Below the pieces are notes generated by a model, which saw only the letters and a program-made list of their open reading frames with translations, had not been told where the DNA came from and ran no database searches. A DNA stretch of 45,198 nucleotides, taken from positions 1-45,198 of IMG/VR virus record IMGVR_UViG_3300047562_001269; one strand, written 5' to 3'. The stretch comes from a virus. A program made the position numbers and the translations under genes. How positions within the stretch are numbered: position 1 is the stretch's first letter; the number at the start of each line of letters is the position of its first letter. This document shows, in pieces, positions 6,419-42,041 of the stretch.

Positions 6419-7099
6419 ATGAGTATCATGAAGGGACTAAAGGCCATGGAACAGGCCATTGATAAGCCCAAGGTAGCCGCAGAATCAGGCGGCATTAAGG
6501 TTCGCTGGCTCAAGTTAGAGGACGGTCAATCAGTCAAGGCTCGTTTTATCAACGAACTAGATGAGGATTCACCCAACTATGATGAAGCACGCGATGTTGC
6601 TATCGTTGTTTCAGAGCACACCAATCCAAAGGATTACAAGCGCAAGGCAGTATGCACTCAAGATACTGAGGGTCGCTGCTTTGGATGCGAGATGGCTCGC
6701 AAGGAGACAATGGAAGATCGCAAGCGCGGCGGCTCATGGAGGCCACGACTACGGTTCTACACCAACCTGCTGGTTGATGATGGAATGGAAGACGCATATG
6801 TTGCCGTTTGGTCACAGGGCGTAGGAAAGCAGTCTGCTTTTAATTCCATTCGTGAGTACGCACTTGATACAGGAAGCGTTAGCAATCTAACGTGGCGTTT
6901 GAAGAGGCAGGGAACAGGAACAGATACCACATATGTTCTTCTTCCTACCGCACCAGACTCTGAGCCATTTGATTGGTCAGGAGTTGAGCCATTCAATCTG
7001 GAAAAGGTTGTTCGTGAGGTTCCCTACGCGGAGCAAGAAGCCTTTTATCTTGGTTTTGATGCGCCAGTTGGCTCTTCCTCAACAAACATTGATTGGTAA
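6419..7099 (+). CDS. Single-stranded DNA-binding protein-like
   Basis: 226 residues from ATG 6419, chosen because AAGGAG lies seven bases upstream (an upstream TTG at 6395 has none). Three close Cys residues (CTQ...GRCFGCEMARKE near residue 78-91) suggest a zinc-binding loop, as in T4 gp32-like phage SSBs; an OB-like beta region follows (RLRFYTNLLVDD, YVAVWSQG). An acidic/aromatic C-terminal half is present but not a classical acidic tail. Its position between primase and polymerase fits a fork SSB; the family is an inference. Confidence 0.6.
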   Translation: MSIMKGLKAMEQAIDKPKVAAESGGIKVRWLKLEDGQSVKARFINELDEDSPNYDEARDVAIVVSEHTNPKDYKRKAVCTQDTEGRCFGCEMARKETMEDRKRGGSWRPRLRFYTNLLVDDGMEDAYVAVWSQGVGKQSAFNSIREYALDTGSVSNLTWRLKRQGTGTDTTYVLLPTAPDSEPFDWSGVEPFNLEKVVREVPYAEQEAFYLGFDAPVGSSSTNIDW

Positions 7100-7106
7100 T
7101 TAGGCT

Positions 7107-7205
7107 GGTGGGGGGAGTCGCAGCGTGCTGGATTTCGCATAACTTAGGATGGTTGTAGTTAACTGCTGAGTTACGGTTGAAATTCCACAGAAGTCTCCCC
7201 CCACC
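7107..7205 (+). ncRNA. Structured RNA leader upstream of DNA polymerase
   Basis: A perfect 11-bp stem (GGTGGGGGGAG at 7107-7117 with CTCCCCCCACC at 7195-7205) closes a ~77-base interior that itself folds: 7130-7136 with 7179-7186 (one bulge), and TAACTTAG 7140-7147 with CTGAGTTA 7166-7173. The outer stem ends six bases before the polymerase ribosome site (GAAAGGA 7211-7217) and TTG start. No T-run follows, so it is not a normal terminator. It may be a cis-regulatory leader, such as a translational operator, or a separate small RNA. No known riboswitch class is recognised. Confidence 0.7.
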
Positions 7206-7222
7206 TTATTGAAAGGAATATT

Positions 7223-10200
7223 TTGTACTCACCATTGCATGTTCATACTCACTTTAGTCTTATGGATGGAGTTGCTACTCCAGAAGAATACGTTGCACGG
7301 GCGGTAGAAGTGGGAATGCCGTCTATTGCTATTACAGATCATGGCACTCTCTCAGGACACAGAGCCATGTATAGAGCAGCCAAAGAGGGTGGAATTAAGC
7401 CAATTCTAGGAATAGAAGGATATATTACTGCCGACCGCTTTGATAAGCGTGATAAGGCAGAACGCACTACACCATTAGACCTAATCTATAATCATATTGT
7501 TATTCTTGCCAAGAATGATGAGGGTTTAGAAAATCTTGGCAAACTAAATGAGATTGCGTGGAATGAAGGTTTTTATAAGAAGCCACGCATTGATTTTGAG
7601 GTATTAGAAAAGTATAAGTCAGGTCTTATTGTTACATCTGCTTGCATGAGTGGTTTGCTTAACAAGGCAATTGAAGAACAAGAGTTTGCCATTGCAAAGA
7701 AGCATCTTCAATGGTTTGGTGATCACTTTGGCGATGATTTCTATGTAGAAGTTATGCCTCACAATACTGAGGGAATGAATCAGGCATTGGTAGAACTTGC
7801 TGATCAGGGTGGCTACAAGATTGTTGTAACGCCAGACTGCCATCATGCGACGGTAGACCAGAAGGTCATTCAAGAAATGATGCTTATTCTAAATACCCAT
7901 GCTAAGTTAGACAAGGAAGCCACATATGAAAAGTCAAAGAAGTTTGACAACATGATGGAAAGACTTGACTATCTTTACGGTCATGACCGCATGATGAGTT
8001 TTAATAGATTTGATATTCATCTTCTTTCCCCAGATGAAATGCGTGAATCGATGGAGAAGAGCGGTGGATTCCGTGAGGACATGTTCACGAATACCTTAGA
8101 GGTTTCGGGCAAAATAGAGGACTATACGATCAGCAGAAATCTAAACCTTCTTCCAGCAGAACATCGTGATCCAGATGCACAGATCAGAAAGTATGCATAT
8201 GATTGGTTAGAAGCCAATAATTTGCATACTAACTCAGAGTATGTTGATCGCCTTGAAGAAGAACTAGAAATTATCAAAGAGAAGAAGTTTGCTTCATACT
8301 TTATTGTTGTTCGAAATATGCTTAATTGGGCCAAGAAGAATGATATTATGGTGGGGCCAGGGCGAGGTAGTTCAGCAGGATCTCTTCTTTGCTACACCCT
8401 TGGAATTACAGATATCGATCCACTAAAGCATGGACTACTATTCTTCCGATTCATTAATCCAGAACGTAATGATTTTCCAGATATTGACTCAGACATTCAG
8501 GACAGTCGCCGCGAAGAAGTAAAGGATTATCTAGAAAGGCAGTATAAGCATGTCGCATCCATTGCTACCTTCCTACAGTTCAAAGATAAAGGAGTTGTCA
8601 GAGACATTAGTCGTGCTCTCAATATCCCACTCTCTGATGTTAATCGGGCTCTTAAGACAGTGGATACTTGGGAGGAATATCTAACATCCAGAAACACTGC
8701 CTGGTTCCGTGAAAAATATCCAGAGGTTGAAACATATGGGGACCAGATTCGTGGACGAATTCGCGGTACTGGGGTTCACGCCGCTGGTGTGGTAACTTCT
8801 AAGATTCCTATTTCCAAAGTAGCACCCATGGAAACAAGATCTGTAACAGGATCAGAGGGACGTATTCCAGTAGTTGCTGTAGATATGGAAGAGGCGGCAG
8901 ATATTGGTCTAATTAAGATCGACGCTCTTGGATTAAAGACGTTAACTGTAATCAATGATGCTTTAAAGATTATCAAGGAAAGAACAGATAGAGATATTGA
9001 CTTAAAAAAGATAGACATGGAAGATAAAAATATCTATCACATGCTGTCCGATGGTCACACAAAGGGAGTATTCCAATGTGAAGCAACCCCATATACCAAT
9101 CTGCTGGTAAAAATGGGTGTAAGCAAATTTGATGAACTTGTTGCATCTAATGCTCTTGTTCGTCCAGGTGCTATGAATACTATTGGTAAGGACTACATTG
9201 AACGTAAGCGGGGAAAGCAGGGCATAACCTATTCAAGTCCTATACTAAAAGAATTTACAGATGATACTTACGGTACAATTTTGTATCAAGAGCAGGTTAT
9301 GCTTGCTTGCGTGAAACTTGGCGGCATGACAATGGCGCAAGCAGATAAGGTTCGCAAAATCATTGGTAAGAAGAAGGATGCGAAGGAGTTTGACGAATTC
9401 AAAGAGTTATTTGTTCGGAATGCAACTGGGCCGCTTGGCGGGGCTGCTGCTGAAAAAATGTGGCAAGACTTTGAGGCACACGCAGGGTATTCGTTCAATA
9501 AATCCCATGCTGTGGCTTACTCAACACTCTCATACTGGACAGCATGGCTCAAATACTACTATCCACTAGAGTTTATGTTTGCCTTGCTTAAGAATGAGAA
9601 GGACAAGGATGCTCGTACAGAATATCTGATTGAGGCAAAGCGCATGGGAATATCTTTGCGTTTACCACACATCAACGATTCTGATATTGATTTTAAGATT
9701 GAAGGGAAGGGAATACGCTTTGGGCTGGCAGCAATTAAGTTTATTTCTGATAAGATCGCTGGAAGATATATTGAGGGAAGGCCATTCCATTCTTACAAGG
9801 AAGTTGAAGAGTTCACTTTTACAAAAGGAAACGGAGTAAATAGCCGTGCCCTGGCATCTCTCAATGCTGTAGGTGCTTTAACATTTCCAGACAATCCAAG
9901 AGATGATCAGAAGGTTAGAGATAGTCTATATGAGTATTTAAACCTTCCAGAATTTACCAGCGACATACCACAGCATTTTCATGCTTATATAAATTCAGTA
10001 GACGAGTTTGATGAGAAGGGTGTCTTCGTTCTCATGGGTGTAGTCCGTGGTATCAAGCGCGGCAAAGGATGGTCCAGAGTAGAGGTTCTAGACAACACAG
10101 GAGCGATAGGAATATTTGATGATGAAGAAACTAGTATTGAGCCAGGTAAAACTTATCTTGTTCTTGTTGGATCTAACAGAATTATGGAAGCAATTCCTGT

Positions 10201-10495
10201 TGAAGAGATATCAAAAAGCCAGTCACCGCTTGTACGCTTCTTAAATTATAGGCAATTGCCCTATGGCGAAAAAGAGCATTATGTGTTATCCTTTAAGCCT
10301 CGCGTAACTAAGGCAGGAAAGAGAATGGCTACATTGGTGGTGGCAGATCATGATCGTAATCTGTCTTCTGTCGTAGTTTTTCCAACAGCATTTGCAATAG
10401 CATATACGAGACTTGAAGAAGGCAAGGCTTTTGAGATGGAATTTAGCAAAACAAAGGATGGAGATTTAACATTGAAAGAGGTAGTTTCAGCATGA
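7223..10495 (+). CDS. dnaE: DNA polymerase III alpha subunit (DnaE-type)
   Basis: A 1090-residue C-family replicative polymerase, started at TTG 7223 after GAAAGGA. Domains in order: PHP (HVHTHFSLMDG at residues 5-15, AITDHGTLSGH near 36, metal ligands intact, so possible proofreading); palm with GPGRGSSAG near 378 and PDIDSDI near 419 carrying the catalytic aspartates; third aspartate in KIDALG near 566; fingers; helix-hairpin-helix; C-terminal OB-fold (residues ~940-1085). It replaces the host polymerase for phage replication. A strong RNA stem just upstream suggests translational control. Confidence 0.95.
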   Translation: MYSPLHVHTHFSLMDGVATPEEYVARAVEVGMPSIAITDHGTLSGHRAMYRAAKEGGIKPILGIEGYITADRFDKRDKAERTTPLDLIYNHIVILAKNDEGLENLGKLNEIAWNEGFYKKPRIDFEVLEKYKSGLIVTSACMSGLLNKAIEEQEFAIAKKHLQWFGDHFGDDFYVEVMPHNTEGMNQALVELADQGGYKIVVTPDCHHATVDQKVIQEMMLILNTHAKLDKEATYEKSKKFDNMMERLDYLYGHDRMMSFNRFDIHLLSPDEMRESMEKSGGFREDMFTNTLEVSGKIEDYTISRNLNLLPAEHRDPDAQIRKYAYDWLEANNLHTNSEYVDRLEEELEIIKEKKFASYFIVVRNMLNWAKKNDIMVGPGRGSSAGSLLCYTLGITDIDPLKHGLLFFRFINPERNDFPDIDSDIQDSRREEVKDYLERQYKHVASIATFLQFKDKGVVRDISRALNIPLSDVNRALKTVDTWEEYLTSRNTAWFREKYPEVETYGDQIRGRIRGTGVHAAGVVTSKIPISKVAPMETRSVTGSEGRIPVVAVDMEEAADIGLIKIDALGLKTLTVINDALKIIKERTDRDIDLKKIDMEDKNIYHMLSDGHTKGVFQCEATPYTNLLVKMGVSKFDELVASNALVRPGAMNTIGKDYIERKRGKQGITYSSPILKEFTDDTYGTILYQEQVMLACVKLGGMTMAQADKVRKIIGKKKDAKEFDEFKELFVRNATGPLGGAAAEKMWQDFEAHAGYSFNKSHAVAYSTLSYWTAWLKYYYPLEFMFALLKNEKDKDARTEYLIEAKRMGISLRLPHINDSDIDFKIEGKGIRFGLAAIKFISDKIAGRYIEGRPFHSYKEVEEFTFTKGNGVNSRALASLNAVGALTFPDNPRDDQKVRDSLYEYLNLPEFTSDIPQHFHAYINSVDEFDEKGVFVLMGVVRGIKRGKGWSRVEVLDNTGAIGIFDDEETSIEPGKTYLVLVGSNRIMEAIPVEEISKSQSPLVRFLNYRQLPYGEKEHYVLSFKPRVTKAGKRMATLVVADHDRNLSSVVVFPTAFAIAYTRLEEGKAFEMEFSKTKDGDLTLKEVVSA

Positions 10496-27523: not shown

Positions 27524-27594
27524 GCGGCTGTGGTGTAGAGGTAACACAAGACTCTTCCAAAGTCTTATCGCCAGTTCGATTCTGGTCAGCCGCT
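27524..27594 (+). tRNA. tRNA-Gly(UCC)
   Basis: Acceptor GCGGCTG (27524-27530) with CAGCCGC (27587-27593), anticodon loop CTTCCAA (27554-27560, anticodon TCC), T-loop TTCGATT. No encoded CCA. Reads GGA, frequent in this arm. Confidence 0.92.
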
Positions 27595-27653
27595 CGCTTG
27601 GGAAGTTGATGTTTTGACCGTGTGAAAACATAAACAATAATTAAGGAGATAGA

Positions 27654-28196
27654 TTGTTACAGAAAGTTTATGAAAAGTATTCTCAGCCCACCTCAGATTG
27701 GGGTGGAGATAAGGGAACTGGTCACTCATATATTGAGTTATATGAAAAATATATGGAAACAAAACAATCTATTTGTCTTTTAGAAATTGGTGTTCAGTGT
27801 GGCTACTCACTAAAAATGTGGGAAGAATATTTTGCAGATTCTGATATCTATGGTATTGATATTGATTTATCATTTAATAAATTTCCAGAACTTAAAAACC
27901 TTTTTGAATTTGATGCAACTAAAAATAATTTAGTTCCAGATAGTTTTCGTTCGATAGAATTTGATTACATTGTTGATGATGGAAGTCACCGCGTTCAAGA
28001 TCAAATAAAATCTTTTGATATTTTTTATCCACAACTTAAGGTTGGTGGAAAATATTTTATCGAAGATATTGATGGAGATTTGTCCTTGCTTACCATAGCA
28101 AATCACTTGCGTAAAAGAGGAATTTCGTATATCATAGAAGATGTAAGGTATATCAAGGGCAGATTTGATGACATTATGATAGTTGCAAATAAATAA
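27654..28196 (+). CDS. SAM methyltransferase, macrocin-O-methyltransferase-like
   Basis: 180 residues from TTG 27654 with AAGGAG upstream. Motifs ICLLEIGVQCGYSLKMW near residue 41, YGIDIDLSF near 65, FDYIVDDGSHRVQDQIKS near 100 and GGKYFIEDID near 130. This is the TylF/class I group that methylates sugars. Part of the glycan-modification cargo, framed by tRNAs. Confidence 0.72.
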   Translation: MLQKVYEKYSQPTSDWGGDKGTGHSYIELYEKYMETKQSICLLEIGVQCGYSLKMWEEYFADSDIYGIDIDLSFNKFPELKNLFEFDATKNNLVPDSFRSIEFDYIVDDGSHRVQDQIKSFDIFYPQLKVGGKYFIEDIDGDLSLLTIANHLRKRGISYIIEDVRYIKGRFDDIMIVANK

Positions 28197-28202
28197 TACT
28201 TC

Positions 28203-28275
28203 CTGCGTGTGGCGCAACGGATAGCGCAAGTGGTTTCTACCCACTAGGTTGGGGGTTCGAATCCCTCCACGCAGA
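28203..28275 (+). tRNA. tRNA-Arg(UCU)
   Basis: Acceptor CTGCGTG/CACGCAG (28203-28209, 28268-28274), anticodon stem AGTGG/CCACT with loop TTTCTAC (anticodon TCT), T-loop TTCGAAT. Reads AGA, the main Arg codon in the AT-rich arm. Confidence 0.92.
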
Positions 28276-28279
28276 CTAA

Positions 28280-28359
28280 GCGGTATAGTCCCCAAGGTGG
28301 GGAAGCGGTCTGTAAAACCGTCGCCTTTGGCATGGTTGGTTCGATTCCAACATACCGCA
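28280..28359 (+). tRNA. tRNA-Tyr(GUA)
   Basis: Acceptor GCGGTAT/ATACCGC (28280-28286, 28352-28358), anticodon loop CTGTAAA (anticodon GTA at 28312-28314), long variable arm typical of bacterial tRNA-Tyr, T-loop TTCGATT. Four bases after tRNA-Arg. Confidence 0.92.
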
Positions 28360-28362
28360 CAA

Positions 28363-28391
28363 TTGACAACGCAGTCAATCAACGGTATAAT
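28363..28391 (+). promoter_or_regulatory. Perfect sigma-70 promoter
   Basis: TTGACA (28363-28368), 17 bp, TATAAT (28386-28391), exact consensus. It begins four bases after tRNA-Tyr and drives the gene at 28424 through a leader with AAAGGAG. Confidence 0.8.
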
Positions 28392-28423
28392 ATAGCAGTA
28401 AGCACACAAACAAAGGAGATGTT

Positions 28424-28645
28424 ATGGAAACTATGGTTGAAGAGCGTACAGATTTTCTAAAGGCAACAGATCGATGTGATAGGTGTGCAAGTCAGGCTTT
28501 TGTGTGGGTCAATGGAGTAAATGGTGATTTGCAATTCTGCCGTCACCATTTTCTCAAGCACGAAGATGCTATTCGTGCATACGCATTTGAAGTAATTGAT
28601 GAAACATACAAGATTAATGACAGATCTCAGTCAAGTCCTGTATAA
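28424..28645 (+). CDS. DUF7455-like zinc protein
   Basis: 73 residues under a perfect promoter. ATDRCDRCASQAFVWV (residues 14-29) and FCRHHFLKHED (near 46) form the zinc site of the small actinobacterial DUF7455 family, followed by FEVIDETYKIND. Homologues are found in actinobacteria and their phages; the role is unknown, possibly regulation. Its last codons GTA TAA overlap a TATAAT. Confidence 0.7.
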   Translation: METMVEERTDFLKATDRCDRCASQAFVWVNGVNGDLQFCRHHFLKHEDAIRAYAFEVIDETYKINDRSQSSPV

Positions 28646-28646
28646 T
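28617..28646 (+). promoter_or_regulatory. tRNA promoter overlapping stop codon
   Basis: ATGACA (28617-28622), 18 bp, TATAAT (28641-28646); the box contains the TAA stop of the upstream gene. A start near 28653 would lie just before tRNA-Thr. Confidence 0.55.
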
Positions 28647-28656
28647 TTTCAGGCAC

Positions 28657-28728
28657 GCCTCCTTAACTCAGGGGTAGAGTACCGCACTTGTAATGCGGCT
28701 GTCGTCCGTTCGAATCGGACAGGAGGCT
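28657..28728 (+). tRNA. tRNA-Thr(UGU)
   Basis: Acceptor GCCTCCT/AGGAGGC (28657-28663, 28721-28727), anticodon stem CCGCA/TGCGG with loop CTTGTAA (anticodon TGT), T-loop TTCGAAT. Reads ACA. Confidence 0.92.
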
Positions 28729-28733
28729 CGTAA

Positions 28734-28805
28734 TGGCGTGTGGCGCAACGGCAGCGCAAGGCACTGTTAATGCCTGGGTTGTAGGTTCGAATCCTACCAC
28801 GCCAG
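28734..28805 (+). tRNA. tRNA-Asn(GUU)
   Basis: Acceptor TGGCGTG/CACGCCA (28734-28740, 28798-28804), anticodon loop CTGTTAA (anticodon GTT), T-loop TTCGAAT. Five bases after tRNA-Thr. Confidence 0.92.
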
Positions 28806-28821
28806 CAAAGAAAGGAAAGCA

Positions 28822-41962: not shown

Positions 41963-41968
41963 TTTTGG

Positions 41969-42041
41969 CGCACCTGATGGGATTCGAACCCACGACCTCC
42001 ACCGTGACAGGGTGGCGAGCACTCCGCTGCTCTACAGGTGC
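41969..42041 (-). tRNA. tRNA-Asp(GUC)
   Basis: Minus-strand cloverleaf: acceptor GCACCTG/CAGGTGC, anticodon stem CCACC/GGTGG with loop CTGTCAC (anticodon GTC), T-loop TTCGAAT. It ends the DUF932 transcription unit. Confidence 0.9.

Follow-up and report, generated by a model that had tools for sequence, protein, structure and literature searches.

The hairpin element located between the ssb and dnaE genes of the viral record IMGVR_UViG_3300047562_001269 (IMG/VR) is, on balance, probably a non-coding phage RNA in which a GC-clamped hairpin displays an antisense copy of helix 69 of the 23S rRNA, and it would act in trans. Positions 1–45,198 of this record were analysed as one 45,198-nt stretch, hereafter the window, to which all coordinates refer. 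The complementarity to 23S rRNA, its recurrence, a strand bias, the matching of host type in the unbiased cases and the covariation of the outer stem were obtained in the analysis, and the presence of the same complement in unrelated phages suggests that phages may use small antisense RNAs against the host ribosome.

The structured RNA between ssb and dnaE

The first-pass annotation had described a perfect 11-bp GC-rich stem closing a nested fold at 7107–7205, which was confirmed: the stem is formed by GGTGGGGGGAG and CTCCCCCCACC and encloses a nested inner hairpin. At −46.6 kcal/mol, the minimum free energy of the 7100–7230 segment lies below the average of its shuffles, −33.98 (z = −3.55), and one of 200 shuffles was equally good. 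The placement of the element before a TTG-started dnaE also proved correct, as the AAAGGA ribosome site (7212–7217) lies six bases past the stem end (7205), the start codon is at 7223 and the gene product matches the expected families (Table 1). Rfam covariance models returned no family at gathering score for the window element, whether riboswitch, ribozyme or sRNA, in agreement with the annotation, which had recognised no riboswitch family. The genes around the element encode a DnaB-like helicase, a primase and a UvsX-like protein. Elsewhere in the window, five phage tRNA genes are clustered at 27524–28806 and a sixth lies on the opposite strand at 41966–42041.

Table 1. Positions of the window element, its parts and the two flanking genes
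Feature	Position	Strand	Remarks
Outer stem P1, 5′ strand	7107..7117	+	Perfect pairing with 7195–7205; compensatory changes in relatives
Outer stem P1, 3′ strand	7195..7205	+	Perfect pairing with 7107–7117; compensatory changes in relatives
Anti-helix-69 block CTTAGGATGGTTGTAGTTA	7143..7161	+	Complement of 23S rRNA 1911–1929 (E. coli numbering), one G–U pair
Second stretch GGATTTCGC	7130..7138	+	Same order as in the 23S complement (rc23S GGAATTTCGC), by alignment
CGTGC, remnant of a third complementary stretch	7124..7128	+	Longer in relatives (TACGCAATTCGTGCTGG in L006)
Apical loop TAGT	7156..7159	+	Unpaired in the predicted fold (pair probabilities); complementary to the helix 69 loop
Upstream gene, phage single-strand DNA-binding protein (SSB)	6419..7099	+	PHROG 9721, E 1.1e-41
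Downstream gene, DnaE-type DNA polymerase, TTG start	7223..10495	+	PHROG 405; PF07733, PF17657, PF02811

Searching IMG/VR with the polymerase yielded 39 loci, 38 of which included DNA upstream of the start. Among these 38 dnaE relatives the RNA core was complete in 14, present as a cut copy in one (L005) and absent from 23; L005 and L036, the locus without upstream DNA, were omitted from the count of complete cores. Four more contigs of the family came from a pattern search (L044, L051, L053 and L057, of which L053 is truncated by the end of its contig or locus), bringing the window family to the window and 18 contigs. In the members seen with both flanks, ssb was found on one side and dnaE on the other, and a U-rich tail follows the stem in L012, L017, L018 and L037. 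Since 23 of the 38 relatives are without the core, and none of the 15 of these that were searched whole holds the block elsewhere, the element is dispensable.

In an alignment of 12 members, 131 of the 132 cells over the 11 positions of the outer stem were standard pairs, a number reached by none of 2000 shuffles, and base identities changed, for example from GC to AT, at pairs 4, 7, 9, 10 and 11. Twenty cells were changed on both sides, again unmatched in 2000 shuffles, the outcome was the same with the eight distinct stems, and RNAalifold retained the outer stem. The annotation had named compensatory changes in three helices as the support to be sought. This covariation test succeeds for the outer helix only, because the inner helices showed no excess over shuffles: 81.8% of their cells were paired (270/500 shuffles) and compensatory change was not in excess, in a test based on a MAFFT alignment that may be imperfect. 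Within the 19-nt block 16 of the 19 columns were invariant versus 23 of 80 elsewhere (Fisher p = 1.3e-5), where two of the 12 members (L044 and L057) came from the pattern search inside the block. The AAGT at 7191–7194, just 5′ of the 3′ strand of the outer stem, was also invariant in the 12 members and has no evident partner.

The ssb–dnaE interval showed further variation. In L021 (4400–5000) and L025, the RNA and dnaE are separated by an inserted ORF whose sequence looks HNH-like by eye. In L022, L027, L030 and L006 (with a variant in L026), the position of the RNA holds a short GC-rich hairpin whose loop is AATCTCACGA and which in L006 stands in tandem with the RNA hairpin; in this loop hairpin ATCTCACGAC would complement a conserved part of 16S rRNA and TCTCACGAC the 23S rRNA at about 2592, short matches that could be due to chance. 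Promoter-like sites (TTGACA-17/18-TAnAAT, by eye) overlap the ssb–dnaE hairpin upstream of dnaE in L015, L022–L024 and L026.

Complementarity to 23S rRNA

The 19-mer at 7143–7161 is the reverse complement of actinobacterial 23S rRNA, with one G–U pair, in the segment of helix 69 (E. coli 1911–1929). The conserved core pattern occurred in at least 119 stretches of bacterial genomes; among the matches listed all titles were actinobacterial, the ten stretches inspected were antisense 23S, and many others lay on contigs of rRNA-operon size. In the window alone, the ungapped complement score was 42.5, compared with an average of 30.3 (sd 2.9) in shuffles, and because at least one of 300 shuffles scored higher (maximum 46), this sequence is borderline and would not settle the complementarity by itself. 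As judged by sequence comparison, the relatives, unlike the single window sequence, settle it: a second colinear complement, which skips the helix-71 hairpin of 23S, was detected 5′ of the block in L006, L012, L014, L018, L034, L044 and L057 (0–3 of 300 shuffles). This 5′ complement was not significant in the window (120/300 shuffles) or L008 (34/300), and in the window GGATTTCGC is additionally paired inside the hairpin in the predicted fold. The 3′ part of the core was weak as further antisense in all nine elements tested (at least 38 of 552 background windows equally good). The absent helix-71 stretch and the non-significant 3′ part speak against an rRNA gene fragment; only L212, L372 and L376 look like rRNA. 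The extended complementarity to the target exceeds chance both for the window family and for the other phages described below.

In the cases obtained without bias, the variable bases of the block match the type of the host. The window phage is nearest to Streptomyces phages (polymerase 55%, terminase 54%), and its block shares TGG with actinobacterial 23S; the block of the Vibrio phages shares CCG with E. coli 23S. Such matching was counted as support in only two sets, the 14 relatives found through the polymerase and the Vibrio phages found by BLAST, because most other elements came from patterns fixing these bases. The reductase encoded in L191, a locus from another family, has its nearest relatives in Flavobacterium phages. 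In a wobble comparison, compatible changes (A to G) occurred in three families and incompatible ones (G to A and T to C) also in three.

Net binding to the 23S segment of about 1903–1982 was computed against 60 shuffles. For twelve elements of other families the predicted values lay between −13 and −45 kcal/mol and were equalled by 0 or 1 of the 60 shuffles, and L012 of the window family gave −12.9 kcal/mol (1/60). The prediction for the window RNA was −2.5 kcal/mol, no better than shuffles (53/60), and the values for L057 (−7.0 kcal/mol, 13/60) and L034 (−5.8 kcal/mol, 23/60) were not significant, because in these RNAs the 3′ arm pairs with the antisense arm. According to its own predicted fold, the window RNA has the antisense arm paired, and only GAT and the apical TAGT stay unpaired; pairing might begin as a kissing contact between the apical loop and helix 69. 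The locked antisense arm, as predicted, is the main weakness of the antisense reading for the window itself. Because covariation does not back the inner helices, the RNA may work in a form other than this locked fold.

Recurrence of the complement in unrelated phages

The E. coli-type 19-mer CTTAGGACCGTTRTAGTTA, the version that matches 23S of non-actinobacterial type, was present in 33 IMG/VR contigs, of which L212 contains real rRNA and the other 32 do not, and in the cluster representatives examined it sits between genes. As a control, an equally long universal 16S 19-mer was found in one IMG/VR contig, and no other rRNA position recurred comparably among 178 viral loci, a set whose selection had in part used this block. 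A broader pattern matched 63 contigs, 30 of them new, with L338 and L351 among the new ones lying inside genes. A pattern for the neighbouring 23S stretch matched 10 contigs, of which L368, L369, L370, L373 and L374 look like further elements, and a third pattern matched 54, the nine new ones being the L377 group of seven, L382 and the doubtful L378. The matches of the pattern TTCGY..TTAGGRTGGTT were judged to be chance except L043 and L044, among the inspected loci (L294–L331 being outside the scope).

BLAST searches with the 23S stretch extended the set to named phages, namely Vibrio phages PWH3a-P1, qdvp001, R16F, 10AMN and P018-4, Arcanobacterium phage TPWB06 and three Staphylococcus phages; the remaining matches were records holding or resembling real rRNA. 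Of four named-phage regions inspected, three (L332, L333 and L334) have the stretch between annotated genes, and the fourth (L335) is an unannotated record. The element of L339 matched rRNA-bearing records and Vibrio phages, that of L191 gave only matches judged to be chance, and BLAST of two other elements in phages produced nothing useful. The 21-nt matches of Klebsiella phages to the window were also taken as chance (E 0.3, inside annotated genes). Rfam searches at 14 other loci detected only tRNAs at gathering score; SNORD58 in L191 (19.1 bits, cutoff 42) and SNORA84 in L339 (13.5 bits, cutoff 45) were taken as chance, and the LSU rRNA model on the opposite strand of L339 scored 7.1 bits (cutoff 50).

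The retained elements formed 20 clusters by flanking DNA. Those inside genes (L041, L042/L062, L045, L058, L338, L351, L371 and L375), the rRNA pieces (L212, L372 and L376) and L378, a doubtful contig with no clear phage genes, were dropped from this count. Two of the dropped viral contigs, L372 and L376, have 23S-like pieces ending near helix 69 and are possibly chimeras or intron borders. In 19 of the 20 clusters the upstream gene lies on the strand of the antisense RNA (binomial p = 4e-5), as called on one representative per cluster where most genes are mechanical ORFs; for the Vibrio and Arcanobacterium entries the strand is that annotated in the record, and for L189 it is that of the tRNA. 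The exception is L350, whose flanking genes are on the other strand. A terminator-like hairpin follows on the antisense strand in 10 clusters (L187, L183, L184, L190, L340, L339, L368, L200, L348 and L382), in three of which (L339, L368 and L382) a weaker one exists on the opposite strand. The neighbouring genes are diverse: capsid genes (L193, L349), ribonucleotide reductase (nrdA) and DNA polymerase (L191), an Rz-like spanin (L342), an HslV-like peptidase (L339), terminase (L377), DNA ligase (L382) and a tRNA gene (L189). The L339 element looks like a free-standing RNA, because a sigma-70-like promoter-like site (TTTACA-16-TATAAT, 11/12) precedes the block and a terminator-like hairpin follows it. 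A promoter scan of the antisense strand of L344 found none.

Two layouts were distinguished among the elements. In L188, L350 and others, TCGCTA(C) immediately precedes the block, which is also its place in the 23S complement, while in L183, L191, L348, L377, L382 and the Vibrio phages TCGCTAC is located downstream, in the loop of the following hairpin. From these sequences, we take the two layouts reaching one target as probable convergence on 23S 1911–1936.

Proposed action and alternative explanations

With a somewhat better than even chance, small RNAs antisense to 23S helix 69–71 have arisen independently in phages whose hosts differ widely, as a weapon or throttle against the large subunit, the window element being the GC-clamped actinophage version. 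It would join, by function and not by descent, a recurrent set of phage small RNAs directed at 23S about 1911–1948. The RNA would pair with helix 69 and the neighbouring 1925–1948 when free 50S subunits or late pre-50S particles leave them exposed, and the pairing would hinder subunit joining (bridge B2a) or 50S maturation, while 70S ribosomes already translating phage mRNA would presumably be spared. The phage needs ribosomes, therefore the timing of such an action would matter. Transcription and binding of the elements, the stage concerned (50S or pre-50S) and the consequences for the host are inferred. According to the available part of PMC7038079, a peptide nucleic acid (PNA) against helix 69 inhibits the growth of E. 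coli, and the available part of PMC11260487 describes helices 68, 69 and 71 as flexible in late pre-50S particles, their docking as rate-limiting and a flexible helix 68 as incompatible with the joining of 30S.

It is rather unlikely, though conceivable for the window family, that the element is a cis-acting leader whose hairpin controls dnaE, by acting on translation or on ssb–dnaE termination, and whose 23S complement senses free ribosomal subunits. The constant place, flanked by ssb and dnaE in those members whose sequence covers both sides, the U-rich tails in four members and the locked antisense arm, reminiscent of a toehold switch, are in line with such a leader. However, the ribosome site lies outside the hairpin, an HNH-like ORF separates the RNA from dnaE in L021 and L025, no intrinsic terminator (GC stem and U-tract) was found when sought in the window, and the other families, which adjoin unrelated genes and are often 3′ of them, would be left unexplained. 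The annotation had offered two interpretations, a T4-type hairpin controlling the polymerase or a separate RNA. A conserved structured RNA is indeed present and the latter option fits best, but T4-type control is not supported by the data: the hairpin ends at 7205 and leaves AAAGGA at 7212–7217 uncovered, the HNH-like ORF (by eye) intervenes in two relatives, dnaE occurs without this core in 23 of the 38 relatives having upstream sequence, and the 19-mer is a 23S rRNA complement that recurs in unrelated phages beside unrelated genes.

The RNA could also protect instead of inhibiting, by shielding helix 69–70 or serving as a decoy for an enzyme acting there, since rRNA-cleaving toxins and TlyA/RluD act in this region. 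The identical target region and the recurrence in many phages would suit this idea, to which we nevertheless give little credence: the RNA strand is the antisense and not a copy of the substrate, and nothing seen here ties these phages to such enzymes. The least probable explanation is a DNA-level or selfish feature. The 23S-complement stretch falls on the site that the 23S homing enzyme I-CeuI recognises, therefore the elements could be homing targets or relics of captured rDNA; the contiguous families do read as an rDNA site and HNH-like ORFs are nearby in some cases (L021 and L189, by eye). Nevertheless, the site is split in the permuted families, a single strand is used in 19 of the 20 clusters, terminator-like hairpins follow, and the invariant block is inside a covarying stem.

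Our literature search, which covered titles and the beginnings of abstracts and extended neither to most subscription papers nor to bioRxiv preprints, retrieved no report of a phage RNA antisense to 23S rRNA, and the available main text of a 2025 review of phage small RNAs (PMC12197685) does not contain "rRNA" or "23S". If the antisense explanation is true, phages attack or regulate the ribosome by RNA through one of its most conserved functional helices, and an RNA attack on the ribosome would be a mode for which no description was found in the literature searched. Host takeover, 50S assembly and antisense antibacterials would then become open to direct test, and natural ready-made inhibitors would be at hand in culturable Vibrio phages.

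C/D and H/ACA guide RNAs are likewise antisense to rRNA, but the phage elements have only chance-level matches to them in Rfam. The translational operator of T4 gene 43 is similar in being an RNA hairpin near a phage DNA polymerase gene; in contrast to it, the window hairpin does not cover the ribosome site, and it contains a complement to rRNA. The trans-acting phage small RNAs treated in the available part of PMC12197685 are also small, antisense and phage-encoded, while the examples given there act on mRNAs or on another sRNA and not on rRNA. The synthetic anti-helix-69 PNAs (Kulik et al., 2017, as presented in the available part of PMC7038079) are antisense to the same 23S helix; they are artificial, whereas the phage RNAs are natural, structured and genome-encoded.
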